Virus record (IMG/VR): IMGVR_UViG_3300024999_000029
Coordinates: 186,001-250,000 of that record
Strand: one strand, 5' to 3'
DNA length: 64,000 nt
DNA from: a virus
Positions 34,780 to 51,709 of this stretch are shown here, piece after piece; the stretch's first letter is position 1, and each line of letters begins with the position of its first letter. Under the pieces are notes generated by a model. That model ran no database searches. It saw only the letters and a list, made by a program, of their open reading frames with translations, and was not told the DNA's origin. The translations under genes and the position numbers were made by a program.

Positions 34780-34834
34780 AACCCTCAACCCCTTTCTGTT
34801 ATCTGTTATAATTAAATATCGTTTTTCATTAATT

Positions 34835-35113
34835 TTAATCCCATCTCAAATCCTCTATATATTGAAACGGACGCGCTATTAATTTATAAGCATCTTCCAA
34901 AATTTCCAAATTAGACATCGTATCTATATTAATTATATCTAAAGATTTTATCTCTGCTAAACGAAGTAAAAATGGACTAAACGTGAAAATATTAATATCT
35001 TTATTGTAATTATCTTTTAATAACTCTACTTGTTTGGTAGGGTGAAACCTATCCCAGTTTTCCATATTATTATCTGGTGCATAGTATACGTTTAAAGAAG
35101 TGTATATTTTCAT
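34835..35113 (-). CDS. Hypothetical protein
   Basis: A 92-residue protein starting MKIYTSLNVYYAPDNNMENWDRFHP. The start at 35113 follows GGAGG by eight bases. Mixed strands and helices; contains FSPFLLRLAEIK. Unknown function. Confidence 0.6.
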   Translation of the reverse strand: MKIYTSLNVYYAPDNNMENWDRFHPTKQVELLKDNYNKDINIFTFSPFLLRLAEIKSLDIINIDTMSNLEILEDAYKLIARPFQYIEDLRWD

Positions 35114-35176
35114 AATTAATTCCTCCATATTTTATTTATTGGTCATCTTCTGTTATAATATGAAACACATCTTTCA

Positions 35177-35419
35177 TTAGTTTAAATCAAAAACAATTTC
35201 TCTTGCCAAACTAATCCCATCTGCAATACTTGTACTTGTTTCATACTCTTTTATCTTAACTTCTTTTTGTTTTTGAAGTTCAATAAACTTAACGTGTGAA
35301 ACACTTTTATTTTCTAACTGTTTATTTATTTCCAAAATGCTTTTTTCTATTGCCCCACATTCTTTTATTTTATTCCGATACTCTTCAGATATTTTTTCTA
35401 TTACTAAATTATATTTCAC
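35177..35419 (-). CDS. Coiled-coil hypothetical protein
   Basis: An 80-residue helical protein with heptad spacing through most of its length (about 8-60). No domain recognised. AAGGAG upstream. Confidence 0.6.
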   Translation of the reverse strand: MKYNLVIEKISEEYRNKIKECGAIEKSILEINKQLENKSVSHVKFIELQKQKEVKIKEYETSTSIADGISLAREIVFDLN

Positions 35420-35456
35420 GTTAAACTCCTTAGTGTCATATTATAAAACAGTTCAT

Positions 35457-35600
35457 TTATCTAAATAAGTCTGCGTATTCTTTTAGTCCTAGGGCTTCAC
35501 ATAATGCCTTTTCTGCTAATTCAATTTTAGCTTCATCTATTATTGCAGGATTGTTCAACCAGTGTAATGCTTCTATTACTTTATCTTTGTTCACATACAT
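35457..35600 (-). CDS. Small helical protein
   Basis: A 47-residue Ala- and Glu-rich helical protein (MYVNKDKVIEALHWLNNPA...). AGGAGG upstream. Not recognised. Confidence 0.6.
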   Translation of the reverse strand: MYVNKDKVIEALHWLNNPAIIDEAKIELAEKALCEALGLKEYADLFR

Positions 35601-35641
35601 TTACCTCCTGTTTTATTATATTTTTGATTAAAAATAACCTT

Positions 35642-35851
35642 TTATCTTGATTTACATTTAATACATTTAATAGGTAAACCTGTTTTGAATTTTAAATTAA
35701 CGCATTTTGTTTTATCTAATGGACAATAATTCACATGTGAATTAATCAAATCTTTTATATAAAGTATATTTTCGGACTCTTTACAATTCGGACAAATTAG
35801 TTCTCCTTCAAATTCTGTGTCACAAGTTTTACATAATATCTTATCACTCAA
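35642..35851 (-). CDS. Small zinc-ribbon protein
   Basis: A 69-residue protein with CKTCDTEFEGELICPNCK (7-24), a complete zinc ribbon, and a second Cys set at the C-terminus (CPLDKTKC ... CIKCKS). GGAGG upstream. Function unknown. Confidence 0.65.
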   Translation of the reverse strand: MSDKILCKTCDTEFEGELICPNCKESENILYIKDLINSHVNYCPLDKTKCVNLKFKTGLPIKCIKCKSR

Positions 35852-35908
35852 TTAAATCACCTCCACTATATTTAAAATTCTGCTATAACTTAATATCAAA
35901 TAAACTAT

Positions 35909-36493
35909 TTATCTACTAACAACTACTGGAACAACCTTCAATTCCATAATTCGAGCTACAATATATCTGATATATCCGTCTATTAGTAATCCACTATTAT
36001 TAATTACTACTGGCGCATCAAGTTTATTATTGTTTTTATAATATTCAATACAAGCATCAACTTTTTCTTTTCTTGGCGTTGTTTCTAAGAAACATTTGGG
36101 TATTACTATTTTATCAAATTCTACTGAATCGCTGTTGTTATCAATTTCAATAGCACTTTTAAAACCAACATTTCTGATGAACTCTTTTCTTGATTCTGTT
36201 ATAATAACCACTGGTATTTGCATATGATTTAAAGATTTTGCTATAGAATAACCCCTATATCCGCTAACCAAAGAGTATTTGTCATTTTTCTCTTGTTTAA
36301 CTATTATTGGATTGTTCAGCACTGTTATATTTTTATTTTCAATTCTTTCAACTTCCTTCTTAAAAGTAACTCTGGCATTTTTATGTGTTTGTTCTGTGAG
36401 TATAACATCAACTACATTGATTATTTTTACCTCTTGTGACTTTACAAACTCTTCTCTTTTTAGTTGATTTTCTTTAATTATTTGCTTATTCAT
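35909..36493 (-). CDS. Protein with two ParB-like segments
   Basis: A 194-residue protein. YSLVSGYRGYSIAKSLNHMQIPVVII (about 75-100) and APVVINNSGLLIDGYIRYIVARIMELKVVPVVV (about 160-192) both have the xxxGYxRYxxA...xxVPVVV pattern of ParB/Sulfiredoxin-like domains. So it may be a tandem or duplicated ParB-like fold. It lies in the TATAACAG block, as a possible binder of that motif; that link is speculation. Confidence 0.6.
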   Translation of the reverse strand: MNKQIIKENQLKREEFVKSQEVKIINVVDVILTEQTHKNARVTFKKEVERIENKNITVLNNPIIVKQEKNDKYSLVSGYRGYSIAKSLNHMQIPVVIITESRKEFIRNVGFKSAIEIDNNSDSVEFDKIVIPKCFLETTPRKEKVDACIEYYKNNNKLDAPVVINNSGLLIDGYIRYIVARIMELKVVPVVVSR

Positions 36494-36513
36494 AACCTTA
36501 TCCCCCTTTACTA

Positions 36514-36684
36514 TTATTTTATATTCTTAATTTTATCCCAAACTTTCTGACAAGCTCTATAAAACTTATCATCATCGTTGACAGACCATTCTAGCAACTT
36601 ACTCAATATTTTTTCTTGCTTATGTGATACTTTGGTTTTGTTATACAAATATTTTTCTATCTCATTACTATAATCAATTACCAT
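36514..36684 (-). CDS. Small hypothetical protein
   Basis: A 56-residue basic helical protein (MVIDYSNEIEKYLYNKTK...). Its ATG follows directly on the stop codon of the upstream gene (TAAATG), so translation is probably coupled. GGTGAG upstream. Confidence 0.6.
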   Translation of the reverse strand: MVIDYSNEIEKYLYNKTKVSHKQEKILSKLLEWSVNDDDKFYRACQKVWDKIKNIK

Positions 36685-36894
36685 TTACTTCTCACCTACC
36701 TTTTCAAAAATAATAGTTGTTATAATTTCTGTATCACTTGTAAGTAAATTACTATTCATAAGTGCTGAGTGAGGCTTAGAGATTGCTGTTATAATCATAT
36801 CTCTGTAAATTATATTTGAATTTAATAAAAACTTATTGACATCTTTGTCTTTTGTTGATATATCCTTATTCCTAAATGTTTTTGTTTGGATCAT
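36685..36894 (-). CDS. Small hypothetical protein
   Basis: A 69-residue protein (MIQTKTFRNKDISTKDKDVNKF...). Start ATG at 36894 or an in-frame TTG at 36903; the GAAGGG site does not decide between them. Not recognised. Confidence 0.5.
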   Translation of the reverse strand: MIQTKTFRNKDISTKDKDVNKFLLNSNIIYRDMIITAISKPHSALMNSNLLTSDTEIITTIIFEKVGEK

Positions 36895-36926
36895 ATCAAC
36901 CAATCAACCCTTCTTTTATATTTTAA

Positions 36927-37142
36927 TTATGCTAATCTATACGCATCTGTTATTGATCTGTCATATCCATCCATTTCAGCATTTATTAACGCTTGTTCTT
37001 TGGTTGGAGCAAAATAAATACCTATTACTAATTCTCCTGAAACATCATACCATTCATTGTCATCACAAACCGCATCTGCTTTTTTAACCATTTGTGAATC
37101 TCTTACAAAAGAAGCATTTACCACTATTAAATATTTATTCAT
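36927..37142 (-). CDS. Small hypothetical protein
   Basis: A 71-residue protein (MNKYLIVVNASFVRDSQMVKKA ... GIYFAPTKEQALINAEMDGY), strands then an acidic helix. Start chosen at 37142 with AAGGAGG eight bases upstream. Function unknown. Confidence 0.6.
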   Translation of the reverse strand: MNKYLIVVNASFVRDSQMVKKADAVCDDNEWYDVSGELVIGIYFAPTKEQALINAEMDGYDRSITDAYRLA

Positions 37143-37172
37143 TTTCAATTTCCTCCTTTATATATTTTTATA

Positions 37173-37256
37173 TTAATGCCTATTTAAATATTTGTTCCAG
37201 AAGCATAATTCCATCAAGTAATAACTGGCTGCTGTTATAAGTCCATGGATAAACAT
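37173..37256 (-). CDS. Possible 27-residue peptide
   Basis: MFIHGLITAASYYLMELCFW is hydrophobic and could be one membrane span, ending in basic residues. GAGGAAG lies 10-11 bases before the ATG. Small and weakly supported. Confidence 0.4.
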   Translation of the reverse strand: MFIHGLITAASYYLMELCFWNKYLNRH

Positions 37257-37273
37257 TTAAATCACTTCCTCGC

Positions 37274-37630
37274 TTATATTAGATATATTAATAAATCCTT
37301 ATCAACCTTTTCTTTTGCCTGTTCAATGTTATTTTTAATAATGTATTGCAGTAAACTTCTAATATGAGCTGTCTTGTTGTTTCTTGTTTTCCCTACTGCT
37401 TCGCTTACATACTGTTCAATGTCTGATATAGATACCGTTGCTATATCTCTATTTATACGCTCCATAAATGCTCCAATATCAACTTTATATTGTACCCATG
37501 ATGTAATTTTATCTCCAAACTTTGATTTAAAAGCCTCATAATATGTTTGATTAACTGTAAGTAGATTATATTGCTTAATATGCTCTGCTTTTACCTTTAA
37601 AACCTTTTCACTCATTGTATACTTACCCAT
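37274..37630 (-). CDS. Stand-alone integrase SAM-like (core-binding) domain protein
   Basis: A 118-residue protein with the helical pattern of the tyrosine-recombinase core-binding domain (WVQYKVDIGAFMERINRDIATVSISDIEQYVSEAVGKTRNNKTAHIRSLLQYIIKNN, about 44-101) but no catalytic domain. AGGAGG upstream. It may bind att-like or regulatory sites, or act with the recombinases at 28930 and 56001. Confidence 0.6.
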   Translation of the reverse strand: MGKYTMSEKVLKVKAEHIKQYNLLTVNQTYYEAFKSKFGDKITSWVQYKVDIGAFMERINRDIATVSISDIEQYVSEAVGKTRNNKTAHIRSLLQYIIKNNIEQAKEKVDKDLLIYLI

Positions 37631-37655
37631 TGTTATGACCTCCTTTATAATTTAA

Positions 37656-38030
37656 TTATACTAGTAATAATCTTTTTACGGTATCTTCGCCAAACTTATA
37701 TGCCTTACCGTCACTACATACTGCCTTAACTGGCATTTTATGTGCTTTAAGGTTTAACCCTTTAATTGTAAATGTTTTCCCGTTCATATTAAACTGCTTA
37801 TTATAATCTGTTGGTTTAAATCCAAACAACATACAGTATTTCTCAAATTCCGCTTGTTCAAAAGACTTTCCTGATACTTCTTTCTTATTTACTTGTAAAT
37901 CAAGATTAAAGCTGTTATCCGAATATTTAACTTTCCCTGCTTTGATATTTGCATTATATTTATCAGCTATTTGCTTCAATGCTTCCTCAACTTCCGATCT
38001 GAAATTTATAAATTCTTGCCTTGTTAACAT
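37656..38030 (-). CDS. Conserved phage hypothetical protein
   Basis: A 124-residue protein (MLTRQEFINFRSEVEEALKQIADKYNANIKAGKVKYSDNSF) with a C-terminal AVCSDGKAYKFGEDTVKRLL. I recall this pattern in many Firmicutes phages, without function. Helical then strand-rich. AGGAGG upstream. Confidence 0.7.
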   Translation of the reverse strand: MLTRQEFINFRSEVEEALKQIADKYNANIKAGKVKYSDNSFNLDLQVNKKEVSGKSFEQAEFEKYCMLFGFKPTDYNKQFNMNGKTFTIKGLNLKAHKMPVKAVCSDGKAYKFGEDTVKRLLLV

Positions 38031-38070
38031 TTTTTTATTCCTCCTTTATATTTTCGATAAACTAAGTTTT

Positions 38071-38613
38071 TTATTTAAATATAATATGTTTACTATTCTC
38101 TTTTACAAAATTTTCTGCTCCAGATATTTTTACAAACTTTTTAAAACAATCATCATGTATAAACTTTCTGTGTTTACTGCATTTATAAATGTAGTGCGAA
38201 TCTATATCTGTTAATAAAAATTGACTACATACAGGACAGACCTTACAGGATGCACTTTCATATGTTGTATTTGCATTTTTTATACCTCTAGAAACACAAT
38301 ATATATGTTTATTATTTCTTGTGTTTTTTTGGCTGTTCCTTTGCATTTCATTTATAGTCATTCTTTCTCTGCCACTTATAATCATCTTTTCTTTTCCAAA
38401 GTCCCAATCTGGGAATTTTGTTTTAATTATTATTGCTTTTATCGCCAACATGGTTATTATAGTATCTCTGTTATTATTATCCATTTGCTTCAATGTACTA
38501 TTAATATTTTCAGATACGAATCCATATGCTTCTGGAGTATTAATTGCTAGTATTATGTTATTGCTAAATTCATATATACTTATTTTTTGAGACATATCAT
38601 ATGTTATGGTCAC
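38071..38613 (-). CDS. Hypothetical protein with C-terminal zinc finger
   Basis: A 180-residue protein: helical N-terminus, and a C-terminal Cys/His cluster (SCKVCPVCSQFLLTDIDSHYIYKCSKH...HDDC, about 120-155). The start is a GTG, 11 bases from AGGAG, or an ATG six codons later. Function unknown. Confidence 0.6.
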   Translation of the reverse strand: MTITYDMSQKISIYEFSNNIILAINTPEAYGFVSENINSTLKQMDNNNRDTIITMLAIKAIIIKTKFPDWDFGKEKMIISGRERMTINEMQRNSQKNTRNNKHIYCVSRGIKNANTTYESASCKVCPVCSQFLLTDIDSHYIYKCSKHRKFIHDDCFKKFVKISGAENFVKENSKHIIFK

Positions 38614-38673
38614 AATTTTTTTTACTCCTTTTATTTTATATTTTTCATTAAATCTAATATTTTCTTCAAACTG

Positions 38674-38961
38674 TTATACTACCTTTATAAATTGAACGTA
38701 TCTTTCTGGCTTCCTGCATCTTGGTTTAACTACATTAAATACAACCTCTAGTGCATCTATTTCTCCTTGCAATTCTCTTCTAATTACATCTTCAACCTCT
38801 GTATTCATATCAATTGTTTCTCGTTTCCATAAATCAAAAATTTGGCTTGTCATACAGTTTGAAATTTGACACTTATCAACACTTTTTAATGATGCATCTT
38901 TAAATGTTTTACTATCAACTAATTCCTTACACTTGTTATCAATCCATTCTTGAAGCTTCAT
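38674..38961 (-). CDS. Hypothetical protein
   Basis: A 95-residue helical protein (MKLQEWIDNKCKELVDSK...) with Cys residues at CQISNC. GGAG upstream. Not recognised. Confidence 0.6.
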   Translation of the reverse strand: MKLQEWIDNKCKELVDSKTFKDASLKSVDKCQISNCMTSQIFDLWKRETIDMNTEVEDVIRRELQGEIDALEVVFNVVKPRCRKPERYVQFIKVV

Positions 38962-39034
38962 AATTACATCTCCTTTATTTTATATTTTACTTTAAAATGG
39001 GTAATTTATCAACCTTTTAAACCTTGCTGTTATA

Positions 39035-39274
39035 CTAACCATTGATATTATCTAAGTCAACTCCATAAATATCTTTAGTCCAGTTTTTCAATATGTAATG
39101 ATAATTGATTAATCCTTCCCATTCTAGGCACTCTTCAAATACTTCATCTGGTGACATTTTGTTGAGCTGATCATCATGACTTTTATCACTCTCTATTAAT
39201 CCCTGTCTTTGTCTTAATTTCTTCAAAATATATTCTGGATATTGTTTCACGCTGTCCACCGCTCCTCTCTCCAT
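39035..39274 (-). CDS. Small hypothetical protein
   Basis: A 79-residue charged protein. Its ATG overlaps the stop of the 40-residue gene (TAATG), pointing to translational coupling; a GTG further in, after GAGAGGAG, could be the true start. Unknown function. Confidence 0.5.
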   Translation of the reverse strand: MERGAVDSVKQYPEYILKKLRQRQGLIESDKSHDDQLNKMSPDEVFEECLEWEGLINYHYILKNWTKDIYGVDLDNING

Positions 39275-39396
39275 TATACTAATTGTAAAGATAAAATTAT
39301 ACTTGCAAAACCCTGTATTGTCTTTACTCTCTGGATATCTGCAATTTCTTTATGTATTTTATTATTATGTTTATAAGATATTGCCCACTTATCCAT
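39274..39396 (-). CDS. Small hypothetical protein
   Basis: A 40-residue ORF (MDKWAISYKHNNKIHKEIAD...) with AGGAGG eight bases upstream, coupled to the next gene by TAATG. Not recognised. Confidence 0.5.
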   Translation of the reverse strand: MDKWAISYKHNNKIHKEIADIQRVKTIQGFASIILSLQLV

Positions 39397-39421
39397 ATAA
39401 AATCACCTCCTGTTATACAAT

Positions 39422-39580
39422 TTAATATTTATTAACCACACACCATAAAAATCTTTTTTGAGATTCTTTTAACTTTATATATTCTGAGCTGGGTTTATCT
39501 TGCTTAATTGCTTTTATTGCATTTATACATTCGGCAATTGTAATTGTTTTACTATTTTTAACTACTGGACTAAATTGCAT
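39422..39580 (-). CDS. Small hypothetical protein
   Basis: A 52-residue basic ORF (MQFSPVVKNSKTITIAECINAIKA...) with GGAGG upstream; a polar TATAACAG lies just before that of the following gene. Not recognised. Confidence 0.55.
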   Translation of the reverse strand: MQFSPVVKNSKTITIAECINAIKAIKQDKPSSEYIKLKESQKRFLWCVVNKY

Positions 39581-39595
39581 ATTGACACCTCCCTG

Positions 39596-39778
39596 TTATA
39601 TTAGATTGTGTTCTTTTAGCTTGTTATAAATCATTTTATATTCTTGATTTGTTAAATTTAATATTTCCTTAATTCTTTTTGCCTCTGCTTCTCTTATGTC
39701 TTGCTCCATCATTTTTTGAATTCGTGGTGTTATATTATTTATTTGTATTGCTTTTATAATTTCTTCATTTCTAGTCAC
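39596..39778 (-). CDS. Small helical protein with GTG start
   Basis: A 60-residue helical protein (MTRNEEIIKAIQINNITPRI...). GTG start, seven bases after AGGAGGG. Contains a helix pair resembling a small HTH (AKRIKEILNLTNQEYKMIYNKL). Function unknown. Confidence 0.55.
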   Translation of the reverse strand: MTRNEEIIKAIQINNITPRIQKMMEQDIREAEAKRIKEILNLTNQEYKMIYNKLKEHNLI

Positions 39779-39844
39779 TTTTAATCCCTCCTATTATAGC
39801 CTAACTTACACCTTGAAATGTTTTATGAGATTTTCTTTTGAATC

Positions 39845-40087
39845 TTAAAGTTCTTTTTCAAACATTAACATTGTACTTGCTCTAATAATTTCCGAATTAT
39901 TTTCACCTATTAATTCAATAAGTTCATTTAATAGTAAATCACAATCAGTAAAGCATTCTTTTTCAAGTTTATAATAAAATTCATCAAATTTATTATTTAT
40001 ATTTTGCGCCTTTTCAATATCTAAACCATATTGTAACATTAATAAATACATACTATAAGCCATTGAATTTAATTCTTTCTCGTTCAT
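39845..40087 (-). CDS. Acidic hypothetical protein behind a tandem Shine-Dalgarno array
   Basis: An 80-residue acidic helical protein (MNEKELNSMAYSMYLLMLQYGLDIEKA...). Its own AGGAGG is eight bases before the ATG, and the leader contains a tandem array of further AGGAGGT copies (40108-40240). The array may modulate its translation. Function unknown. Confidence 0.65.
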   Translation of the reverse strand: MNEKELNSMAYSMYLLMLQYGLDIEKAQNINNKFDEFYYKLEKECFTDCDLLLNELIELIGENNSEIIRASTMLMFEKEL

Positions 40088-40107
40088 TATTATACACCTC
40101 CTGTTAT

Positions 40108-40240
40108 ACCTCCTAATACCTTTATGTACCTCCTAATACCTTTATGTACCTCCTAATACCTTTATGTACCTCCTAATACCTTTATGTACCTAATTATACC
40201 TTTATGTACCTCCTAATACCTTTATGTACCTAATTATACT
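40108..40240 (-). repeat. Tandem 20-bp array of Shine-Dalgarno-like units
   Basis: On the plus strand the unit is TCCTAATACCTTTATGTACC, repeated from 40111: copies at 40111, 40131, 40151, 40171 and 40211 are perfect; 40191 is a variant (TAATTATACC...) and 40231 a partial variant. Reversed, the unit junctions read AGGAGGTACATAAAGG, so five extra AGGAGGT sequences lie upstream of the real site of the gene at 39845-40087. Confidence 0.95.
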
Positions 40241-40254
40241 TTGAAATGCTTCTT

Positions 40255-40425
40255 TTATCGGATTATTTTCAAGCATCCATTTTGAATTTTTACTATATTA
40301 CTTTTCCCAAACTTTATTGTATGTCCAATGCCTATTGAACTAATAATTATTCCTTTTACATATGAAAAGCTTTCTACTCTATCACCTTTTTTAATGGGTT
40401 TATATTCTGTTCTTGCTATATTCAT
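40255..40425 (-). CDS. Small beta-rich protein
   Basis: A 56-residue basic protein (MNIARTEYKPIKKGDRVESFSYVKGII...) with an SH3-like strand pattern. Its start overlaps the end of the upstream gene by 26 bases, with GAAGG before the ATG. Function unknown. Confidence 0.55.
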   Translation of the reverse strand: MNIARTEYKPIKKGDRVESFSYVKGIIISSIGIGHTIKFGKSNIVKIQNGCLKIIR

Positions 40426-40627
40426 TCTCTATACCTTCTTCCATATGAAAACTTTTCTTATTCTGTTTTTCAGTCAAGTGTTCAACTTCAATAATATCTT
40501 CCACATCAATATCTATGTCGTTCCATTGACCTTCTTCAATTATCTTTAATGCTTCCTTTTTAGAGTTTGCAATAACAGTTCCTTTTGCTGAACCAGCTAC
40601 TCTCATTATAAAATTAAAAGTTTTCAT
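40400..40627 (-). CDS. Small hypothetical protein
   Basis: A 75-residue protein (MKTFNFIMRVAGSAKGTVIANSKKEALKIIEEGQWND...), resembling small phage proteins that carry a DpnD/PcfM-like fold, which use this FxxxVxGxxxxxVxAxSxxEAxxII pattern. Start at 40627 after GGAGGG. Role unknown. Confidence 0.6.
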   Translation of the reverse strand: MKTFNFIMRVAGSAKGTVIANSKKEALKIIEEGQWNDIDIDVEDIIEVEHLTEKQNKKSFHMEEGIENEYSKNRI

Positions 40628-40673
40628 TCTCAACCCTCCTGTTATAAGTTAAAATACTTTTTTCATGTAATTT

Positions 40674-40937
40674 TTAATTTAATGTAGTTGTTTTTGCCAA
40701 TGGTTCTTCGCTGTTTTTCATATCTTTTATTTTTATAGTTGGTATATATTCAATTAAATCTCCAGCCGAACAAAGTAAAGCTTTACAAATTAGATCAATA
40801 TGTTTTAATGTTATTCTTTCAATTGTTTCATTATAAATTTCACTAATTGTATTCGGTCTAATTTTAGTTAATCTAACTAAATCCGCTTGATTCATTCTTT
40901 TTTCATATAATAAATCAGCTAAATGTAACTTAACCAT
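40674..40937 (-). CDS. XRE-family helix-turn-helix protein
   Basis: An 87-residue Cro/CI-type DNA-binding protein: helix-turn-helix in LLYEKRMNQADLVRLTKIRPNTISEIYNE (about 9-37), followed by LKHIDLICKALLCSAGDLIEYIP, the conserved second helical part of the family. It likely regulates nearby early genes. The tail is short and non-peptidase. Confidence 0.82.
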   Translation of the reverse strand: MVKLHLADLLYEKRMNQADLVRLTKIRPNTISEIYNETIERITLKHIDLICKALLCSAGDLIEYIPTIKIKDMKNSEEPLAKTTTLN

Positions 40938-40964
40938 TTTTAATCACTCCATCAAATTCTAATT

Positions 40965-41099
40965 CTATTGTTTAACCTCTGTTATTATTCCAATAACCGT
41001 TTCCCCATTTTTTAAATGTGCATAAGCTATGCCGTCACTATCCTGCGTTATCCTTACAACGTCTTCAAATATTCTATTGCCTGTAAAAATTACAGTCAT
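40965..41099 (-). CDS. Small hypothetical protein
   Basis: A 44-residue strand-rich ORF (MTVIFTGNRIFEDVVRITQDSDGIA...) with GGTG upstream. Not recognised. A plus-strand frame covering this region is a shadow. Confidence 0.5.
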   Translation of the reverse strand: MTVIFTGNRIFEDVVRITQDSDGIAYAHLKNGETVIGIITEVKQ

Positions 41100-41123
41100 G
41101 TTTTTACACCTCTGTTATATAAT

Positions 41124-41300
41124 TTACTCAAATCTTTGCTTAATATTATTCATAATACAGCCTAATTCACTAACTGTTATATCTTCCTTCTCCTGCTCCA
41201 TATTCCTGCTAATATCTATAAAATTTAATACCTTTTCAAACTCTACCGCCTCAAGTTCTTTAACTGCTATTTTCGCCAGTTCTGTATTTGATATTATCAT
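41124..41300 (-). CDS. Small hypothetical protein
   Basis: A 58-residue acidic helical ORF (MIISNTELAKIAVKELEAVEF...) with AGGAGG upstream; a TATAACAG lies inside it (41174-41181). Not recognised. Confidence 0.55.
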   Translation of the reverse strand: MIISNTELAKIAVKELEAVEFEKVLNFIDISRNMEQEKEDITVSELGCIMNNIKQRFE

Positions 41301-41342
41301 AACTTTCGCCTCCTGTTATATTGAAATACGGATTTTATTTGT

Positions 41343-41678
41343 TTATCTTTCAAATAATATCTCGAAAATTGGTATGCCTTCATTTCTCATTCCGCTTAAT
41401 GTACCTCTTAACTTTTCTAATTGTTTTTTAACCGCTTGACGTTTTTTATCTTCTCCGATAACTCTATCATCTAAATATATTACTGAGAAATTGCCTTTTA
41501 AAATATCATCCTCCATGAATTTATAAATCATTTCATCTATTCCAGCATTTACAATTGCATTTCTAATTGTAGTTAATACATTTATTTCTGTTCCGTAAAA
41601 TGTACAATCAAGCAAGCATTTAAAAGCCGTTTCATTTTCATTATACATTTTCTCTAATCTTATTGTTTTTTCATACAT
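41343..41678 (-). CDS. Hypothetical protein
   Basis: A 111-residue helical protein (MYEKTIRLEKMYNENETAFKCLLDCTFYGTEINVL...). GGAGG upstream. A Lys- and Arg-rich stretch (KKRQAVKKQLEKLRG) near the C-terminus. Unknown function. Confidence 0.6.
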   Translation of the reverse strand: MYEKTIRLEKMYNENETAFKCLLDCTFYGTEINVLTTIRNAIVNAGIDEMIYKFMEDDILKGNFSVIYLDDRVIGEDKKRQAVKKQLEKLRGTLSGMRNEGIPIFEILFER

Positions 41679-41720
41679 GATTAATTCCTCCTTAAATTTT
41701 GTTCAAATGCTGAATTTATT

Positions 41721-41885
41721 TTATTTTAAATTGTTTTCAATTCTTTTTGCCCATTCTATATAATAACCTTGTTTGCTTACTGGAATATCTTTAAACATAC
41801 TCCAAAACATTTCTGTCAAATAAGTATCTCCTATTCTTTCGGCAATTTCTTCAATTTCTTTTAAATTCTTTTCTTTATTAGTCAT
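41721..41885 (-). CDS. Small hypothetical protein
   Basis: A 54-residue helical ORF (MTNKEKNLKEIEEIAERIGD...). Its ATG follows GAAGG. Not recognised. Confidence 0.55.
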   Translation of the reverse strand: MTNKEKNLKEIEEIAERIGDTYLTEMFWSMFKDIPVSKQGYYIEWAKRIENNLK

Positions 41886-41951
41886 TGAATAAAACCTTCT
41901 TTCTATTTGTTTTAGTTGAACTATTTTTCTATTTCTGTTATACTTAAATTG

Positions 41952-42116
41952 TTATATAGCTTTCTAAGCGTTCGAATCGGGATGTGCGGTAAACGTAAAA
42001 GCTATATAGTTTTAACCAATACACAATGTGTATTTAAATTGTAGTAAAATTTGATTTTTAACCAATACACATTGTGTAGGGAATAGGACTGATATAAAAG
42101 CCAGCCCTATTTTTGT
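41952..42116. promoter_or_regulatory. Hairpin plus two copies of a 23-bp palindromic repeat
   Basis: TATATAGCTTT and AAAGCTATATA form an 11-bp stem around a GC-richer loop. Two 23-bp repeats follow (42010-42032 and 42056-42078), identical except for the central base, each with the 13-bp near-palindrome TACACAATGTGTA. A further hairpin (about 42082-42113) ends in T5 on the plus strand. The set looks like a protein-binding or origin/partition site, or a short RNA, between two minus-strand genes. Confidence 0.65.
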
Positions 42117-42121
42117 TCCTG

Positions 42122-43570: not shown

Positions 43571-43574
43571 TATT

Positions 43575-43603: not shown

Positions 43604-43644
43604 GAATTCTATGCTATTATTTTATATTTTATTTCATTAATTTA

Positions 43645-43908: not shown

Positions 43909-43943
43909 GGTTTCGCCTCCTGTTATTGTAGAAAATCATGGTT

Positions 43944-44159: not shown

Positions 44160-44213
44160 TGTAGAGCCTCCTCAATTATATTTTACTTTTTGTTATACGT
44201 TAAAATTGGATTT

Positions 44214-44474
44214 TTATTCATTTATTAATTTTTCTATTGCCCAATCTGTAAAACTATCTCTTTCAATAATAAATAATTGATCATCGATTTTTATTTCAGT
44301 ACCATTTTTTAATGGACAGTCTGGCTCGCCTGTGAAAGTATTCCAATGATTTACATAAATTCCTTTTGAATATCTGTCTTTTATATGTCTACTATAAAAC
44401 CTTTTTGTGTTTTTATCTTGATAAATTACTCTACATTGTCCCGTTTGTTCTTCAATTTTAATTAAGTCTAACAT
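44214..44474 (-). CDS. Hypothetical protein
   Basis: An 86-residue strand-rich protein (MLDLIKIEEQTGQCRVIYQDKNTKRFYSRHIKDRYS...). GGAGG upstream. Not recognised. Confidence 0.6.
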   Translation of the reverse strand: MLDLIKIEEQTGQCRVIYQDKNTKRFYSRHIKDRYSKGIYVNHWNTFTGEPDCPLKNGTEIKIDDQLFIIERDSFTDWAIEKLINE

Positions 44475-44529
44475 TTTTTATTCCTCCATGTAATATATTT
44501 TGGTTCGTGTTATATAATATTTTGGCTTA

Positions 44530-44799
44530 TTAATATAATGTATTCCATTTTTCGGTCAAATAGTATTCTGGTATTTTATATTTACTTTTTAACTTGTTGT
44601 ATGTAGTAACTGTTATATCAATACACTCATCTATTGTTGGTATGCCTATTTTAAAGCCTTTTGGATATTTTTTTAATCTCTTTTCAATCTCTCTTTTACT
44701 CTTAATATAAACCAATCCTCTAAAATTTTCATCCTCATCTAATTTAACATAGATTTTATTACCAAAAGCATCTTTAATTTTTTCGTCAATTAATTCCAT
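44530..44799 (-). CDS. Hypothetical protein
   Basis: An 89-residue protein (MELIDEKIKDAFGNKIYVKLDEDENFRGLVYIK...). Start moved to 44799, eight bases after GGAGG. Contains a TATAACAG at 44610-44617. Unknown function. Confidence 0.6.
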   Translation of the reverse strand: MELIDEKIKDAFGNKIYVKLDEDENFRGLVYIKSKREIEKRLKKYPKGFKIGIPTIDECIDITVTTYNKLKSKYKIPEYYLTEKWNTLY

Positions 44800-44856
44800 T
44801 TTTAAAACCTCCATGTATTATATTTTAGTTTGTGTTATATGATATTGTGAGTTTAT

Positions 44857-45033
44857 CTAATTATCTAAATATAATGATATTCTTTGTTTTAGATAATATT
44901 GATTTAAGTCTAATATTGCAGATAGTTTCATTATGCCTTTATTATTAAATGTAAAATTATAGCCATTAAGTCTAATATATTCATTCCAAAGTTGTTTACC
45001 TTCATACCATAAATTTCTTTGTTCAGTAGTCAT
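44857..45033 (-). CDS. Small hypothetical protein
   Basis: A 58-residue protein (MTTEQRNLWYEGKQLWNEYIRLNGYNF...). Start at 45033 after AAGGAG; the longer frame to 45108 overlaps the methyltransferase gene and lacks a site. Helical. Not recognised. Confidence 0.6.
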   Translation of the reverse strand: MTTEQRNLWYEGKQLWNEYIRLNGYNFTFNNKGIMKLSAILDLNQYYLKQRISLYLDN

Positions 45034-45091
45034 TTTTAAAACTCCTTTCAGATATATTTTGACTTCTGTTATATAAAATAACCATTTTATA

Positions 45092-47794
45092 TTATACTGC
45101 AATTTCATTTGTTTCTTCTTCCTTATTCAATATTATAATTCTTGTTTTAACATTTGTCATTTCAAAAGTTCCACATTCCAGACTTATTGTATCATAGGTT
45201 TTTTCTTCTAGCCATTCTCTAAAATTTTGACTTTCTTTATCATTCGCAAAAGTCCAATGTTCTGAAGTAATTGAGATTAATTTTCCGCCAGTTTTAAGCA
45301 ATTTGTAAGCGTGTTGTAAATGTTTTATATCTTGATTATTGGTGAATGGTGGATTCATTATTATAGCATCATAATAATTATATTTTTGATATTCTAGTAA
45401 GTCATTACCTATTACATTATGATTTTTTAATCTCAATAATTCTGCAAAGCTGCTATTCCACTCTATAATGTCAACATATTCTGTTATAGCTTTTATTTGA
45501 TCTGCAATATTGCCTATTCCTGCTGACGGTTCTAGCACCCTACTGTTATTGTCTATGTTTGCAAATTCAATCATTTGTGAGGCTGTTTCTTTTGGCGTGA
45601 AATTTATATCTCCTTTTTGTCTTAGTTTATATTCATTTTCTAACTTTTTAATTTTTTGTTGTATCGGATTTTTGTATCTGTCTATGCTATTATAAATTAT
45701 ATTATATTCCTCAACGGCTTTCGTTAATTTTTGAATATTTGTTATTCCGTATTTTTTTAATTTGTTTTGTTTCGTTGGTACTTCTTTGTTATACCATCCA
45801 TCCAAGGGTAAGGAATAATCTACTTGCGGAAATTTTAAACCTTGCGTATTCCTTCCATACTTCATTATATAATACTGGTGAATATTTTCCCTAAATGCGC
45901 CAACTATCAAAGCTTTTTCAAGTTCTGTTATTACTGTATTATCAATTAATTTTTGTTGCACATATTCCAATAATTTTATATTAATTTCTAATGATTCTTT
46001 TTTACTATCTCGGCTTTCTTGCTCTCTCATTCTTTTATATGTGTTTGTTTGATAATCTCCTGATAATGCTGCTATCTTGCTCTGCAATGATTCTATATTT
46101 TTATTTATCTTTTCAAGCAAATTATTCTTTTCGGCTTGTTGTCGCTCATGCTGTTCTTTTTGTTCCGCTTCTGCTTTAATTGCTTGTAATACGTTCTTTA
46201 ATCCTTCAAATTCGATATAGTTTAATAACTGTTCTGTTATATTAATATTATGCTTTTGCACGTATTCAGCAATATTATTTTTATATTCTTCATTTGTGAA
46301 ATAGTTTTCACTATTTAAGCCCAATTTGCAAATATTTTCCGTTGATTCATCAATAATATTATCTGCTGTTTCTTGCTCTTTGTTTGTTGTTACTTCTTCA
46401 GATTGTGGAATATTAACACCTTTTAAAGCTTCTGACGGTTCATATCTAAATATAAAACCATGTTTAAATTTAGAATAATAACCTTTTATTTTTTTCATTT
46501 GTTCCGATACTTTTATATATTCATCACTTGTTAGTTTATTAACTATTTTTACTACCCATAAAGCGGAATTGTCGCGCGTGTCTGTATCGGCTGTTATAGT
46601 GTATTCATTATTAATAATATTTGAATTTTCGGTTTGTTTCGTCTGTTCTGTTATAACTTCTTTTGATTTTTTAGATGTTTTTTTTACCTTTTCAATCTTT
46701 ACCCATTTTTCAACCTCTGTTATTTCCTCAACTTCTTTTAGTTCAAATATTTTTATATTTCCTTTTTTTAAGTCTTTTAACATTCTATCTTCATAATCAT
46801 AATATCTTTTAGGGTTTGTTAATTGCATAAATTTTCTTTTTTCGCTTCCTACTATTTCGTAACTAAAAGAATTTTTTTCTTTCCTTATTCCTTGCCATGT
46901 TCCGCTTCTGATTTGTTCGCCTGTTATCTTCCAATATCCGCCATGAGTTGTAAATGTTAAATAGTCGCCAATTTTAAAAGAATTCCTTTCAACTTGAACC
47001 ATTTTTAAAACTTTTTTTACTTCTGTTATTGTCTTTTTTTCATATCCTGCCTTTACTTGTTGGTCTTCTGCTTCTTTTATATTTTCTTTTGTTCCGTCAT
47101 ACATACCACTAAAACCATTTACAATGCTTTCTATTTTAAGAATAAATGTTTTAAAATCATTTACGGTTTTTAACTCTTTTTCTGTTAGTTCTTTCTTTTG
47201 TGGCTGCTCTCCGTTCCATCCTCGCCAGTGTGTATAACCTTCTTTATATTCCATTTTTATAATGTCGAATTCATATTCTTTCGGTAAGTCCGAATATTTT
47301 GTTATTCCTGTTCCTTTATCGTATATTCTACTATCTTTTTCTATGTGCCATTTAGACGTTGAAGGGTTCGCCATAAATAAAGGATATTTATATTTTAATG
47401 TTTTTGTATTTTCTTTTGTTTGTTGTTTCTGTTCTGCTGATTCTTTTATTTTTTTTATTAGTTTTTTAGCGTTTGTTTCTTCTCCTTCTGTTGCTCCGTT
47501 CGCTTGCGTCATTGCTTCAAGTTTTTTGATTTTTTCATAGTCTATATTTGAATTTATAGTGCTGTTATACGAATATACTTCTTTTCCTGAATAGTTTTTT
47601 ACTTGCCATTCCTCAACGTCAACACACAGTAAAAAACCATTTTTTTCTGCTATTCCATCCCAAGAAGCAGGGTCGTAATAATCACTCATAGAGTCGCTTT
47701 TATCTTCTTTATATCCGTATAGCTTCCAGCCTCTATTTCGTAGTTCGTGTGCTATTCTTACTTTTGCATCCCTCATATCATAATAATTACTCAT
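45092..47794 (-). CDS. Large polyvalent protein with C-terminal N6-adenine methyltransferase domain
   Basis: A 900-residue protein (start at 47794, nine bases after GGAG). N-terminus: WKLYGYKEDKSDSMSDYYDPASWDGIAEKNGFLLCVDV, an LPD-type module; middle: Lys/Glu-rich coiled coils and repeated strand modules (for example FKIGDYLTFTTHGGYWKITGEQ); C-terminus: RVLEPSAGIGNIADQI (SAM-binding motif I) and DAIIMNPPFTNN (catalytic NPPF, motif IV). So it is a DNA N6-adenine methyltransferase fused to accessory domains, the layout of phage polyvalent proteins thought to protect DNA on entry. Target unknown. It contains about nine internal TATAACAG-type sites. Confidence 0.8.
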   Translation of the reverse strand: MSNYYDMRDAKVRIAHELRNRGWKLYGYKEDKSDSMSDYYDPASWDGIAEKNGFLLCVDVEEWQVKNYSGKEVYSYNSTINSNIDYEKIKKLEAMTQANGATEGEETNAKKLIKKIKESAEQKQQTKENTKTLKYKYPLFMANPSTSKWHIEKDSRIYDKGTGITKYSDLPKEYEFDIIKMEYKEGYTHWRGWNGEQPQKKELTEKELKTVNDFKTFILKIESIVNGFSGMYDGTKENIKEAEDQQVKAGYEKKTITEVKKVLKMVQVERNSFKIGDYLTFTTHGGYWKITGEQIRSGTWQGIRKEKNSFSYEIVGSEKRKFMQLTNPKRYYDYEDRMLKDLKKGNIKIFELKEVEEITEVEKWVKIEKVKKTSKKSKEVITEQTKQTENSNIINNEYTITADTDTRDNSALWVVKIVNKLTSDEYIKVSEQMKKIKGYYSKFKHGFIFRYEPSEALKGVNIPQSEEVTTNKEQETADNIIDESTENICKLGLNSENYFTNEEYKNNIAEYVQKHNINITEQLLNYIEFEGLKNVLQAIKAEAEQKEQHERQQAEKNNLLEKINKNIESLQSKIAALSGDYQTNTYKRMREQESRDSKKESLEINIKLLEYVQQKLIDNTVITELEKALIVGAFRENIHQYYIMKYGRNTQGLKFPQVDYSLPLDGWYNKEVPTKQNKLKKYGITNIQKLTKAVEEYNIIYNSIDRYKNPIQQKIKKLENEYKLRQKGDINFTPKETASQMIEFANIDNNSRVLEPSAGIGNIADQIKAITEYVDIIEWNSSFAELLRLKNHNVIGNDLLEYQKYNYYDAIIMNPPFTNNQDIKHLQHAYKLLKTGGKLISITSEHWTFANDKESQNFREWLEEKTYDTISLECGTFEMTNVKTRIIILNKEEETNEIAV

Positions 47795-47873
47795 GTTTTG
47801 CATCTCCTTTGATTATATTTTGTTTAATTGGTATGGAGTTTTTGCAGATACTCCAATAAGCTGTTATAAGCTG

Positions 47874-48452
47874 TTAAACGGCATTATCAAATATTTCTTT
47901 AAAATCTTTTTTATAATGATTCCAATGTATTAAACTATATAATTCAGAAAATTTCATATTTAATATATTTTCGCTCGGTTTATTTAAAATATTTTCTATT
48001 ACTTCAACTTTCCAAGGCTTAAAATATTCACCAAGTTTTATATTACATTTTACAATAACTTGCATGGTTGTATGATTTGTTATATCAATATTATTTAAAA
48101 TATGCCTATCTTCTGGATGTTCTTTTTCTGCTATATGATAAGATTCAATATAATTTTCAATAATAAATGTAAACTGTGAATTTATTATCCCATTGCAATA
48201 TATATTTATTTCTGTTTCAATATCTTTTAAAAATTCAATTGCATTATTTGTTGACGTATAATTTTTATATAATAAGGTTTTTGAATGTGTTTCATAAAAT
48301 ATTTTACCATTCCACTTTTTTGCAATTTCCCATAATCCGACAATCTTCAAATATCCATGTTTATAATCATATTCTACATGATAATTTTTTGGTAATCCCT
48401 GCAATATCATTAATCCTGCTGAACCTTGTCTTTTAAAATGTGTTTTAATCAT
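47874..48452 (-). CDS. Hypothetical protein
   Basis: A 192-residue protein (MIKTHFKRQGSAGLMILQGLPKNYHVEYDYKHGYLKIVG...), beta-rich at the N-terminus, helical at the C-terminus. GGAGG upstream. No motif recognised. Confidence 0.65.
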   Translation of the reverse strand: MIKTHFKRQGSAGLMILQGLPKNYHVEYDYKHGYLKIVGLWEIAKKWNGKIFYETHSKTLLYKNYTSTNNAIEFLKDIETEINIYCNGIINSQFTFIIENYIESYHIAEKEHPEDRHILNNIDITNHTTMQVIVKCNIKLGEYFKPWKVEVIENILNKPSENILNMKFSELYSLIHWNHYKKDFKEIFDNAV

Positions 48453-48591
48453 TTTTTCATTACCTCCATTTAATTTATATTTTTGTTATACTACTAAATG
48501 AATTTATTCCATATTTCTTTCAAGTTCAAAAGCAGCTATATCAACTGTTATATCAATTTTATATTGTAGAATTTAACAATAAACAAATATG

Positions 48592-48843
48592 TTAAATTTT
48601 CAATTTTTCCATAAATGCCATCAAATTGACCGCATCGCTAAGATGTTCATTTTCATATTTAAAAAATAACTTGTAGTTTTTCAATTCATTTATTTTATTT
48701 GTTTCAATTTGACATAATTCAGGGTTTTCTGTATAGACCATTACGCTGCCATCTTTTTTTACTTCAATACTGCATAACCCCTTTTTTTCTAAAAAATAGC
48801 ATATTTCTTTACGTACTAGTATTATTTCAATTCTATCAATCAT
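48592..48843 (-). CDS. Small hypothetical protein
   Basis: An 83-residue protein with CYFLEKKGLCSIEVKKDGSVMVYTENPELCQ, strands then helix. GGAGGG upstream. Not recognised. Confidence 0.6.
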   Translation of the reverse strand: MIDRIEIILVRKEICYFLEKKGLCSIEVKKDGSVMVYTENPELCQIETNKINELKNYKLFFKYENEHLSDAVNLMAFMEKLKI

Positions 48844-48873
48844 GTTTAAGCCCTCCTAAAATTCATTTAAAAG

Positions 48874-49230
48874 TTATATTTGATTAAAAAGTTCTTCATC
48901 TTGTAAATCTGCAATTAATATATATATTTCAACTTCAGTCATTTTTTTACTAATTTTCACCATATTGCTTTTTTTAAACATATCAGTTCTAAAATAAAAT
49001 TTAATTTCTTTACTGTCATAGTTTTCTAAATATGGAGTATTACAATTATTCCAATTAATTTCATCATATAATTTTTTATCATCGACAAATTGAACCCCCT
49101 TGACTATATAGTCACAAATATTTTTGCCAAATTTAAATATATTCTTACGTTCGTAAGGATTTTTCCCTCTTATATCTTGATGAATTGCGCGTGATAAATA
49201 TCTTAATTGTTTTTCATTTAACTTAATCAT
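48874..49230 (-). CDS. Hypothetical protein
   Basis: A 118-residue basic protein (MIKLNEKQLRYLSRAIHQDIRGKNPYERKNIFKFG...). The N-terminal helices resemble a DNA-binding unit. AAGGAG upstream. Unknown function. Confidence 0.6.
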   Translation of the reverse strand: MIKLNEKQLRYLSRAIHQDIRGKNPYERKNIFKFGKNICDYIVKGVQFVDDKKLYDEINWNNCNTPYLENYDSKEIKFYFRTDMFKKSNMVKISKKMTEVEIYILIADLQDEELFNQI

Positions 49231-49284
49231 CTTTTAAAATCTCCTTTTATTTTTAGCTGCTGTTATACAATTATATTTTAATTC

Positions 49285-49470
49285 TCACAGCTGCCAAAAG
49301 TTTTTATTTATTAAGTATAAGCATATTAAATTAATTATGATTGATTCTATGAAAATGTATGCTATAATGTTTTTAAGCGAATTTTTTAATTTAGTAGGGT
49401 TAAATTTTAGCTTGTGGGCTTTACATCTCGACAATGTAAAGCTTTTTTCTATTAGTGCGTAGGTAGTCAT
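49285..49470 (-). CDS. Small membrane protein
   Basis: A 61-residue protein: basic N-terminal half, then a hydrophobic segment (about 33-54, IAYIFIESIIINLICLYLI). The GGAG is 13 bases from the ATG, so the start is uncertain. Confidence 0.45.
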   Translation of the reverse strand: MTTYALIEKSFTLSRCKAHKLKFNPTKLKNSLKNIIAYIFIESIIINLICLYLINKNFWQL

Positions 49471-49536
49471 ATTATTTTTATATCTCCTCTCTTTTTGTTA
49501 TCTGGTAGCGAATTTTTAAAGAATCCGCCAAAACTT

Positions 49537-49731
49537 TTATTTTACATTATATGTATATTTGTAGATATTTCCTAACAATTCAATTTCTACAGTTCCAACT
49601 TTCTTTGATTCGCTAACATTATGAATTTTTATATTTTTGATGATTGAATCTAATGTGTATGTTTTAATTCCTGCAAAAACGTTACTGGACATTGTTAAGA
49701 TTAAAACCGTTGTTATTATTACTTTTTTCAT
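49537..49731 (-). CDS. Small secreted protein with a signal peptide
   Basis: A 64-residue protein. The start at 49731 follows AAAGGA by eight bases and gives a clean Sec signal peptide: MKK, hydrophobic core VIITTVLILTMSS, then VFAG with AxA-type cleavage near residue 19-21. The mature part of about 43 residues is strand-rich. A phage gene exporting a small protein suggests a cell-surface or exclusion role; unproven. Confidence 0.65.
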   Translation of the reverse strand: MKKVIITTVLILTMSSNVFAGIKTYTLDSIIKNIKIHNVSESKKVGTVEIELLGNIYKYTYNVK

Positions 49732-49827
49732 ATTCTTATATCCTTTCTTTTTTATTGAGTTTTTACCCTTTATCACTTGCATAATTTTATGTTTTAATTA
49801 TGCAGCATTAGCTTACACAAGTAAAAA

Positions 49828-50028
49828 TTATAAAATATGTGCATTGCCTTTGTTATCTATACCATTCAATTCTCTAACTCCAAATCCTGTTTTAATTTCC
49901 ATCTTTTTAAAATCAATGTTGCTAATCGTTGCTGTTACATACGTTTGATAATTTAACTGACATACTTCAGTTTGTAAAACCGTTACTGTGTCCCCTTCTT
50001 TCAAACTCTTAAATTCTTTTTTAGTCAT
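49828..50028 (-). CDS. Small hypothetical protein
   Basis: A 66-residue protein (MTKKEFKSLKEGDTVTVLQTEVCQ...) with SH3-like strands. GGAGG upstream. Not recognised. Confidence 0.6.
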   Translation of the reverse strand: MTKKEFKSLKEGDTVTVLQTEVCQLNYQTYVTATISNIDFKKMEIKTGFGVRELNGIDNKGNAHIL

Positions 50029-50149
50029 TATTTCAAAAACCTCCTTTTTATTTATTTTACTGCTACCTTGACGGCTGTTATACCGTCAAACGCTTTGAGC
50101 TTAAAGTCTATTTATACACGCTCAAACGTGTTAATACAAAAATATAATT

Positions 50150-50305
50150 TTATTGGCTTTTAGGTGGTGCAATATAACCCATTTTTTGACCTTCAGAACA
50201 TATTTCACATAATTTACTAATTAGATTATATTTCCAGTTTTTTCTGGTAATCAATTTTTTTAAGATTTTATGTGCTTGTATATAATGATATTTGTTATAT
50301 GGCAT
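50150..50305 (-). CDS. Small basic protein
   Basis: A 51-residue very basic protein (MPYNKYHYIQAHKILKKLITRKNW...) with a CEICSEGQK pair. GGAGG upstream. Probably nucleic-acid binding; unknown. Confidence 0.55.
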   Translation of the reverse strand: MPYNKYHYIQAHKILKKLITRKNWKYNLISKLCEICSEGQKMGYIAPPKSQ

Positions 50306-50324
50306 TCTCAAAACCTCCATAAAA

Positions 50325-50777
50325 TTATTTATTCATTGCAACTTCTAATTCACTAATTTTATTATTAAACCATTCAATTTCCTTTTTTAAGTCTGTTATA
50401 TCTTCTTCAGATAATTTTATATTGCTAATGTATAAATATTCTTCATTAGTTTCGAAATTTTCCCTAAAACGGCATTCACAGCCAGACTCCAATTCTTTTT
50501 TTGCAATAACAAGTGCTTTATTTTTTAACCTATTATATTCTTCTAAAAACAAATCTTTAAATTCGGCTGAATATTTATATTTTGATGTCTTGCCAACGCA
50601 CGCATAATATCTTTTGTCTTTACTGTAATACTCATAACCGCCACATCTTGCACTACTATGAGTAAAATTGCAGTTACTTATAAAAGCACTCTCTTGAGCA
50701 TCAGATAAATCTATTCTTGCAATTTCTCGACCTTTTAAAGTTGTTATAATTACATTATCAAACCAAGTTTTTTTCAT
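50325..50777 (-). CDS. Cysteine-containing hypothetical protein
   Basis: A 150-residue protein: CNFTHSSARCGGYEYYSKDKRYYACVGKTSKY (about 36-67) followed by a helical C-terminus with coiled-coil spacing (about 115-150). The Cys set may bind a metal. AGGAGG upstream. Confidence 0.6.
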   Translation of the reverse strand: MKKTWFDNVIITTLKGREIARIDLSDAQESAFISNCNFTHSSARCGGYEYYSKDKRYYACVGKTSKYKYSAEFKDLFLEEYNRLKNKALVIAKKELESGCECRFRENFETNEEYLYISNIKLSEEDITDLKKEIEWFNNKISELEVAMNK

Positions 50778-50834
50778 GTTTTAACCTCCTTTATTCTCCT
50801 TTAAATTTAATATTTTTCCATTAAAATGTCAATT

Positions 50835-50969
50835 TTACTTTATCTTTAACACTTCCCAAATTCCATCAATTCCACTAAATTCATAACAATTTTTTAGTTT
50901 TAAATCCCAAGTAGCTTTTAGTTCTTTTACTTCTTTTGTATCAACATTTTTTAATATAAAAACTTTCAT
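50835..50969 (-). CDS. Small hypothetical protein
   Basis: A 44-residue ORF (MKVFILKNVDTKEVKELKATWDLKLKNCYEF...) with GGAGG upstream; the last gene before the gene-free region. Not recognised. Confidence 0.55.
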   Translation of the reverse strand: MKVFILKNVDTKEVKELKATWDLKLKNCYEFSGIDGIWEVLKIK

Positions 50970-51709
50970 TTTAAAAACCTCCTTTTTATTTAATTACTTA
51001 TCTAATAACATAAGCTGTTATAACAAACTAACATTTTACATTAATTTTATTTCAAATTTAAAAATCACAGTCAAGCAACTTAAAAATTATATATGTATTG
51101 TTTAATATCTTATGTTATTAGTAATTAATCAAAGTTTTTTGGAATTTATTATAATTTCTGCTACGTTTTATAATTGCTACACTATGTGTTATTTACTCTT
51201 ATACGCTCCCGCTAACATTGTGTTGTTAATATGCGTACTATGTATAAGATACAATTATAAACCTTTTAAGGATGGTTATTTCCTGCAATTTTAGGGATAT
51301 GTAATCCTAAAATTTAACTGCTATTTGTTGCAGTCTGCAAATTCAATATTCAATTTTATAATTGATAGATAACGTCAATATTAGCTAAGTCAAGCCAATT
51401 TTATTGGTATGGTTGAACGTCCACAAGTATAGATATAGCTACCGCAAGGTGACTATCAACTTAACTTATAATTAATTATAACATAAGTAAATTGATATTG
51501 CAATACTAATTTTATATTTTACTTTTATAATATTAATATGCAATTACTTATTATATTATACATATTAATTTTACATGTTACGATGGTATTGTGAGGTCGT
51601 GAGAGGCTCATGGTTGAATGTTTATATGGTTTATAGTCAAGTATGTATAAATAGGGTAAAAGCAGCTTAATGGTATTGTATTTTTTAATGTGAGCTATTT
51701 AATATTTAT

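Follow-up and report, generated by a model that had tools for sequence, protein, structure and literature searches.

The stretch of DNA analysed here (the window) comprises 64,000 bases, positions 186,001-250,000 of the 349,050-base virus record IMGVR_UViG_3300024999_000029, and contains the early-gene island of an SPbeta-like temperate phage, in which the octamer TATAACAG and its heptamer core ATAACAG are repeated on one strand. The octamer occurs 37 times on the minus strand, with 36 copies at 33,926-51,022 and a stray at 20,753, and is absent from the plus strand. The heptamer is present 51 times on the minus strand and once on the plus strand of the whole window, and 49 times and once, respectively, within the island. 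Every site is on the coding strand of minus-strand genes, and the 36 octamers divide into 19 intergenic copies (5.5 per kb) and 17 copies in predicted genes (1.2 per kb), the latter in several reading phases. An earlier note on this DNA had described a one-strand saturation of the block, with copies both before ribosome sites and inside genes, and both observations are borne out. The note had placed the block at 34,797-51,022; the left edge lies at about 33,926. Chance expectation had been put below one octamer, but Markov models of the block itself give 1.8-2.5 copies (Poisson P about 5e-29 or less). The island and selected features of it are as follows:

33926..51022, minus strand: early-gene island rich in TATAACAG/ATAACAG, with 36 octamers and 49 heptamers on the coding strand
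51015..51022, minus strand: the TATAACAG nearest the 5' end, which lies in the first island gene's leader
33886..34539, minus strand: HNH endonuclease gene, the final island gene with a site (33,926)
40101..40108, minus strand: one case in which TATAACAG overlaps a Shine-Dalgarno sequence (TATAACAGGAGGTG)
45092..47803, minus strand: DNA methyltransferase-like gene of 903 amino acids with 10 in-gene ATAACAG, 8 of them read as Ile-Thr-x

As a control, the 840 anagrams of TATAACAG were counted, and no other exceeded 12 copies. One-mismatch variants were at about background except at position 1, where T is favoured over A or G, and at position 8, where G is favoured, followed by A or C, and T is absent. 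The interior bases are almost invariant, and the site logo displayed no clear conservation beyond the 8 nucleotides (nt). Eight of 45 window sites are located 18-23 nt ahead of start codons and overlap Shine-Dalgarno sequences. At window positions 40,107-40,230, tandem 20-base units (GGTATTAGGAGGTACATAAA) with repeated Shine-Dalgarno-like AGGAGG and TACATA were observed, and this array terminates in TATAACAG ahead of a gene.

Genomic setting of the island

The record was examined by pattern search and by reading of stretches, and gene order was compared with NC_001884, E3 and Perkons. Membership of the SPbeta-like group is indicated by MrpR domains beside a YopQ (DndB-like) gene and a YopP-type recombinase, all of which are present, with family matches to PF22822 (E 2.5e-20), PF22823, DndB PF14072 and integrase. 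MrpR is the master repressor in SPbeta. The genes flanking the island are:

28271..28903, plus strand: CI-like repressor with an S24 peptidase domain, adjoining the MrpR and YopQ genes
28930..29883, minus strand: MrpR-like master repressor gene with a tyrosine-recombinase fold (Pfam PF22822, E 2.5e-20, and PF22823)
29907..31220, minus strand: YopQ-like (DndB-related) gene, downstream of the island
56001..57095, minus strand: YopP-like tyrosine recombinase, upstream of the island

The YopP, YopQ and MrpR genes are adjacent in SPbeta, E3 and Perkons. The early island lies between YopP and YopQ in the window phage (B2), the phage of the record's first half (B1), G002 and G003, and is upstream of YopP in G008. 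It holds about 40 small genes, mostly of unknown function, together with methyltransferase, ParB-like, HNH, helix-turn-helix and Lar-like genes.

A second TATAACAG block was found in the record at 60.9-73.6 kb on the same strand as the window block. The surroundings of the two blocks are homologous (65-92% identity in patches), there are two copies of a ligase-like gene (48% identical), and IMG/VR contains one of the two phages alone (G001, 154 kb) with matching site spacing. On the basis of these features the record (G000) seems to be a join of two related phages, one of roughly 154 kb and the other of roughly 195 kb. The second block corrects the claim in the earlier note that the word is almost missing elsewhere, but it appears to belong to the second, joined phage. 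An IMG/VR fragment encodes a YopP-like protein identical to that of the window. A spore-protein (SASP) gene in B1 suggests that the host is spore-forming; scans of genome collections for a host relative and single-protein scans against viral sequences gave no match.

Two further elements were observed in the window, a Skipping-rope RNA (RF02924, function unknown) at 7,037-7,156 on the minus strand, and, at 42,004-42,080, two intergenic copies of ACACAATGTGTATTGGTTAAAA, a repeat that resembles an operator and includes a palindrome of ACACAATGTGT type.

Selection on the word and its spread among relatives

In B2, 14 octamers were counted in coding sequence against 3.4 under synonymous-codon shuffling (maximum 8 of 300 shufflings), and 19 in intergenic sequence against 0.2 expected; coding and intergenic excesses in B1, L017 (G002) and L020 (G003) trend in the same way. 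Where Ile-Thr is followed by a codon starting with G, it is spelled ATA-ACA-G in 19 of 21 cases, and 8 of the 10 heptamers in the methyltransferase gene share one frame. The word is therefore selected within and between genes, beyond amino-acid constraint. Few sites fall in DNA that can be aligned between B1, B2 and G002, and those that do were retained in 8 of 15, 10 of 13 and 4 of 6 cases against 3.4, 2.7 and 0.7 predicted from neutral identity. Since sites are rarely alignable, and G003 carries the word without any alignable block DNA, the word turns up in unrelated genes and does not represent a copied repeat. Regular spacing of the sites was significant in the window only, was not significant in three other phages, and was rejected as a property of the array.

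These observations bear on the idea that the word is a by-product of a repeated promoter or leader context (-10, start point and Shine-Dalgarno) copied through the island. TATAATTAnnnnAG contexts are common to G003 promoters and some sites overlap Shine-Dalgarno sequences, but about half of the copies are genic, their contexts vary and codon choice is bent to the word; this in-gene enrichment makes the by-product the least probable of the explanations considered, and one with almost no claim to belief.

A Chi-like signal, as proposed in the earlier note, or another DNA word that drives recombinational exchange in the mosaic early island is very improbable. The island is highly mosaic, and the ends of homologous segments are near a site in 6-25% of cases against 6-8% for random positions, but this breakpoint effect is weak and is accounted for by conserved intergenic sites. 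Half of the sites are intragenic, no enrichment was seen in same-strand genes outside the island, and the edges of the array follow the gene block. Whereas Chi sites are spread along a replicon and oriented to DNA ends, the word is not phage-wide and forms one island per phage. Its confinement, the breakpoint figures and the gene-block edges leave a Chi-like role unsupported. Boundaries of cassette or integron type, on which the YopP recombinase would act, were also rejected, as breakpoints are only weakly near sites.

The earlier note had advised a search for the same motif in other phages, and this search located a polar array in about ten other SPbeta-like phages, some of which have no DNA in common with the window block. 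Whole-record counts (island strand and other strand) were 19 and 3 in G001, 30 and 2 in G002, 45 and 3 in G003, 20 and 4 in G009, 24 and 3 in G017, and 14 and 1 in G015, and weaker whole-record clusters were seen in G018, G016 and G012. Regional sense heptamers exceeded expectation in G017 (44 against 2.7), G015 (32 against 3.9), G009 (27 against 4.8), G018 (13 against 2.0), G012 (13 against 2.7) and E3 (15 against 5.0), with antisense counts of 0-3 in these six. Arrays are also present in G008 and, weakly, in G012, G016 and E3. The distant G008 is the only phage with a variant of the word (TATAACAA>G), preferring TATAACAA to TATAACAG. An array in the sequenced Psychrobacillus phage Perkons was predicted beforehand from a MazF gene (ORF37) in its left arm and was then found, with 27 sense and one antisense ATAACAG at 5.4-22.6 kb, in the left 26 kb of the phage, where about 4 were expected. 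Regional heptamer counts revealed no ATAACAG array in SPbeta, Alicyclobacillus phage KKP_3916 or the P. larvae plasmid. The array is thus far larger in scope than the window, and the sense-strand word of 7-8 nt is a mark of early regions in many SPbeta-like phages. Its recurrence in the corresponding region of a dozen distant relatives points to a shared signal, most likely one read on RNA, and the most likely effect of this signal is to switch early genes off.

Candidate readers of the word

Sites were compared with predicted promoters, and two in the island were of particular interest:

43523..43570, minus strand: 12/12 promoter (TTGACA-17-TATAAT) with ATAACAG 5 nt past the -10 element and, after a further 8 nt, an inverted partner
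49260..49297, minus strand: 11/12 promoter with TATAACAG overlapping the expected transcription start

The first has a conserved counterpart in the record's second phage. Of 48 strong promoters, 9 have a site at the transcription start, mainly those of G003 and B2, and no strong promoter in E3, Perkons or G015 is overlapped by one. No intrinsic terminator could be detected on the island's minus strand. A sigma-70 -10 element was rejected as the identity of the word, the site logo having no -35 partner or spacing, as was an antisense small RNA with CUGUUAUA, for which there was no conserved source and only one inverted promoter pair, in two phages.

At the DNA level the sites may be viewed as stoperators: asymmetric and all facing the direction of transcription, they would each bind a monomeric repressor, which in the lysogen would halt RNA polymerase both at promoters and further along the early operon. 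The number of sites (20-30 or more per genome), their orientation with transcription and the nearby repressor genes resemble the stoperators of cluster A mycobacteriophages, and the start-point sites, the lack of a detected terminator and the inverted site pair with its 8-nt spacer at a conserved promoter are in keeping with such a role. MrpR, however, is 50-53% identical among the window, B1 and G002 and 37% identical to G003, and between B2 and G002 it is 50% identical, YopQ 46% and the CI-like repressor 58%, where many other genes are 80-95% identical. This divergence of MrpR, YopQ and the CI-like protein is as expected of immunity genes, and the word stays identical throughout, so that the motif does not co-vary with its supposed repressor. 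MrpR was accordingly rejected as the reader: as it is half-different between phages with an identical word, the word is unlikely, judged from sequence, to be its site. The word also lacks flanking conservation past its 7-8 nt, in contrast to 13 base pairs (bp) for stoperators and 15 bp for the MrpR operator of SPbeta (SPBRE); E3, Perkons and G015 have no site at promoters; and the enrichment in loops described below is not predicted. Stoperators rank next after the endoribonuclease considered below, at a level that must be called unlikely.

Other polar elements were observed in relatives. On the reverse strand of KKP_3916 (L031, 71,000-120,131), an element that ends in CAATAAGT and is frequently preceded by ACAAATGCAA occurs in 17 polar copies in the early region (1.4 expected, none antisense); it resembles SPBRE and could represent MrpR stoperators. 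Around yopQ in another group of relatives (L061, L063 and L064), TTATTAAA is strongly polar, with 9-16 copies against 1-2.4, and is possibly a leader sequence ahead of ribosome sites.

Evidence at the RNA level came from predicted structure. Of 356 sites, 7 had ATAACAG in an apical loop closed by a stem of 7 or more pairs, where the expectation calculated over all positions was 1.6 (P 0.0015). Pistol self-cleaving ribozymes were identified in the islands of B2, B1, G009 (two) and G015:

50061..50131, minus strand: Pistol self-cleaving ribozyme in which TATAACAG forms the apical part of the variable P3 hairpin (Rfam RF02679, 68.7 bits; fold)
L010 2,381-2,454; L071 501-572; L079 8,297-8,367; L072 18,758-18,830: further Pistol ribozymes

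In three of the five, the variable P3 loop contains UAUAACAG, UAUAACAG or UAUAACAA on three different stems, and the P3 loop of the Rfam consensus differs from the word. An RNA-level reading was judged more likely than a DNA-level one. The suggestion in the earlier note of an RNA-binding element of a regulon came closest of its three ideas, in that the word lies on the sense strand of one early block, in and between genes and in loops above chance; its reader protein is still putative. In a form without cutting, a phage or host protein bound to AUAACAG would repress translation, stabilise the message or prevent termination. The sense-strand bias, the loops and the sites overlapping Shine-Dalgarno sequences agree with this, but those near starts are a minority, many copies are deep in genes and no candidate gene for an RNA-binding protein was identified, so it is somewhat less probable again than stoperators.

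A second word provides a parallel. MazF of the B. subtilis type cuts at UACAU(A) (PMC10893535, PMC5408214), and counts were made in L013, L026, L014 and L015 (SPbeta, E3 and Perkons) and in L037 (the lytic phage SPO1). TACATA emerged unprompted as the top sense 6-mer in SPbeta early genes (61 against 22; antisense 19 against 16), and held the same rank in SPbeta late genes, E3 and Perkons; other UACAU-N forms were not enriched in the SPbeta-like 6-mer counts. In SPO1, sense TACATA occurred once against 17.8 expected in 50 kb (P 3.5e-7) and was the second most avoided 6-mer, an avoidance absent from the antisense strand. The most avoided sense 6-mer there was GAGATG (3 against 22.2), which is unexplained, and phage K displayed a milder UACAUA deficit (6 against 14). 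In phi3T, a relative of SPbeta, the lysis-lysogeny decision is routed through host MazF, and its authors suggest that lytic transcripts are preferentially cleaved (PMC10769878). Given the UACAUA parallel in SPbeta relatives, a MazF-type reader is the natural first guess for ATAACAG. A search for MazF genes (PF02452, E 1e-28 to 1e-39) placed them within the island or immediately downstream, on the island strand, in G003, G012, G014, G015, G016, G017 and Perkons, and 9 kb downstream of it in G009. The same search did not find MazF in SPbeta, the Alicyclobacillus phage, G011, G019 or G020.

The leading candidate, held tentatively and at somewhat under even chances, is a sequence-specific MazF-like endoribonuclease that reads AUAACAG as a single-stranded RNA site. 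Early transcripts of SPbeta-like phages would have accumulated AUAACAG, best as UAUAACAG, at roughly one per gene, so that one enzyme could cut the whole early message at once. The reader would be a MazF-type mRNA interferase, encoded by the host or, as in several relatives, by the phage, and its cutting would damp lytic early genes and favour lysogeny.

Several observations weigh against this endoribonuclease. PF02452 MazF was not found in the window's record, G001 or G008. The MazFs of several relatives resemble, by eye, that of B. subtilis, an expected cutter of UACAU and not of AUAACAG, and the word is invariant across differing MazF sequences, so the phage MazF need not be the reader. The closeness of MazF genes to islands may reflect shared early regions and not an enzyme with its substrate, and E3 and Perkons, in which both words are present, probably have two readers. 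The loop excess is small, site contexts were slightly more unpaired than random contexts in what is a weak test (P 0.04), and sites at transcription starts would be only partly included in the RNA.

A broader proposal, in which AUAACAG is a clade-wide, host-independent self-tag that marks early transcripts for an endoribonuclease whose activity sets lysis against lysogeny, with UACAUA a parallel tag for B. subtilis-type MazF, is speculative and on balance doubtful. If the word is read on RNA, temperate phages would equip their own early messages with sites for toxin cleavage and turn a bacterial stress enzyme into a switch. This would also offer a sequence-based approach to the part that MazF plays in promoting phi3T and SPbeta lysogeny; both the SPbeta-wide excess of UACAUA and its avoidance in SPO1 can already be tested at the bench. 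If the sites are stoperators, they would represent polar elongation control in a family for which a limited literature search found none described.

Comparison with known systems

The RegB protein of phage T4 is a phage endonuclease that acts on early mRNAs at the short word GGAG, which overlaps Shine-Dalgarno sequences; that word differs from AUAACAG, and no RegB homologue was found, although no search aimed at one was made.

Stoperators of cluster A mycobacteriophages number 20-30, are oriented with transcription and have motifs that vary along with their repressor (PMC6550527). They are likewise dozens of asymmetric sites aligned with transcription in a temperate phage, but are 13 bp long and co-evolve with the repressor, whereas here a word of 7-8 nt accompanies divergent repressors and lies largely inside genes. 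SPBRE is a 15-bp element with 9 peaks by chromatin affinity purification sequencing (ChAP-seq) (PMC10516654), and is likewise repeated, present in the same phage family and tied to the lysogeny region. The version of it derived here (ACAAAAAATATGTAT) does not contain the word, SPbeta has no ATAACAG array, and the word is not conserved past 8 nt.

MazF sites (UACAU/UACAUA; ACA; UUACUCA) are likewise short, strict, confined to the sense strand and independent of frame. AUAACAG is not listed among the sites in PMC10893535 or PMC5408214, and at 7-8 nt would equal or surpass the longest of them. The array shares with such target sites a strict, short word that is in excess on the sense strand only, within genes as well as between them; UACAUA has a like excess in SPbeta relatives, and MazF genes lie in or near several of the islands.

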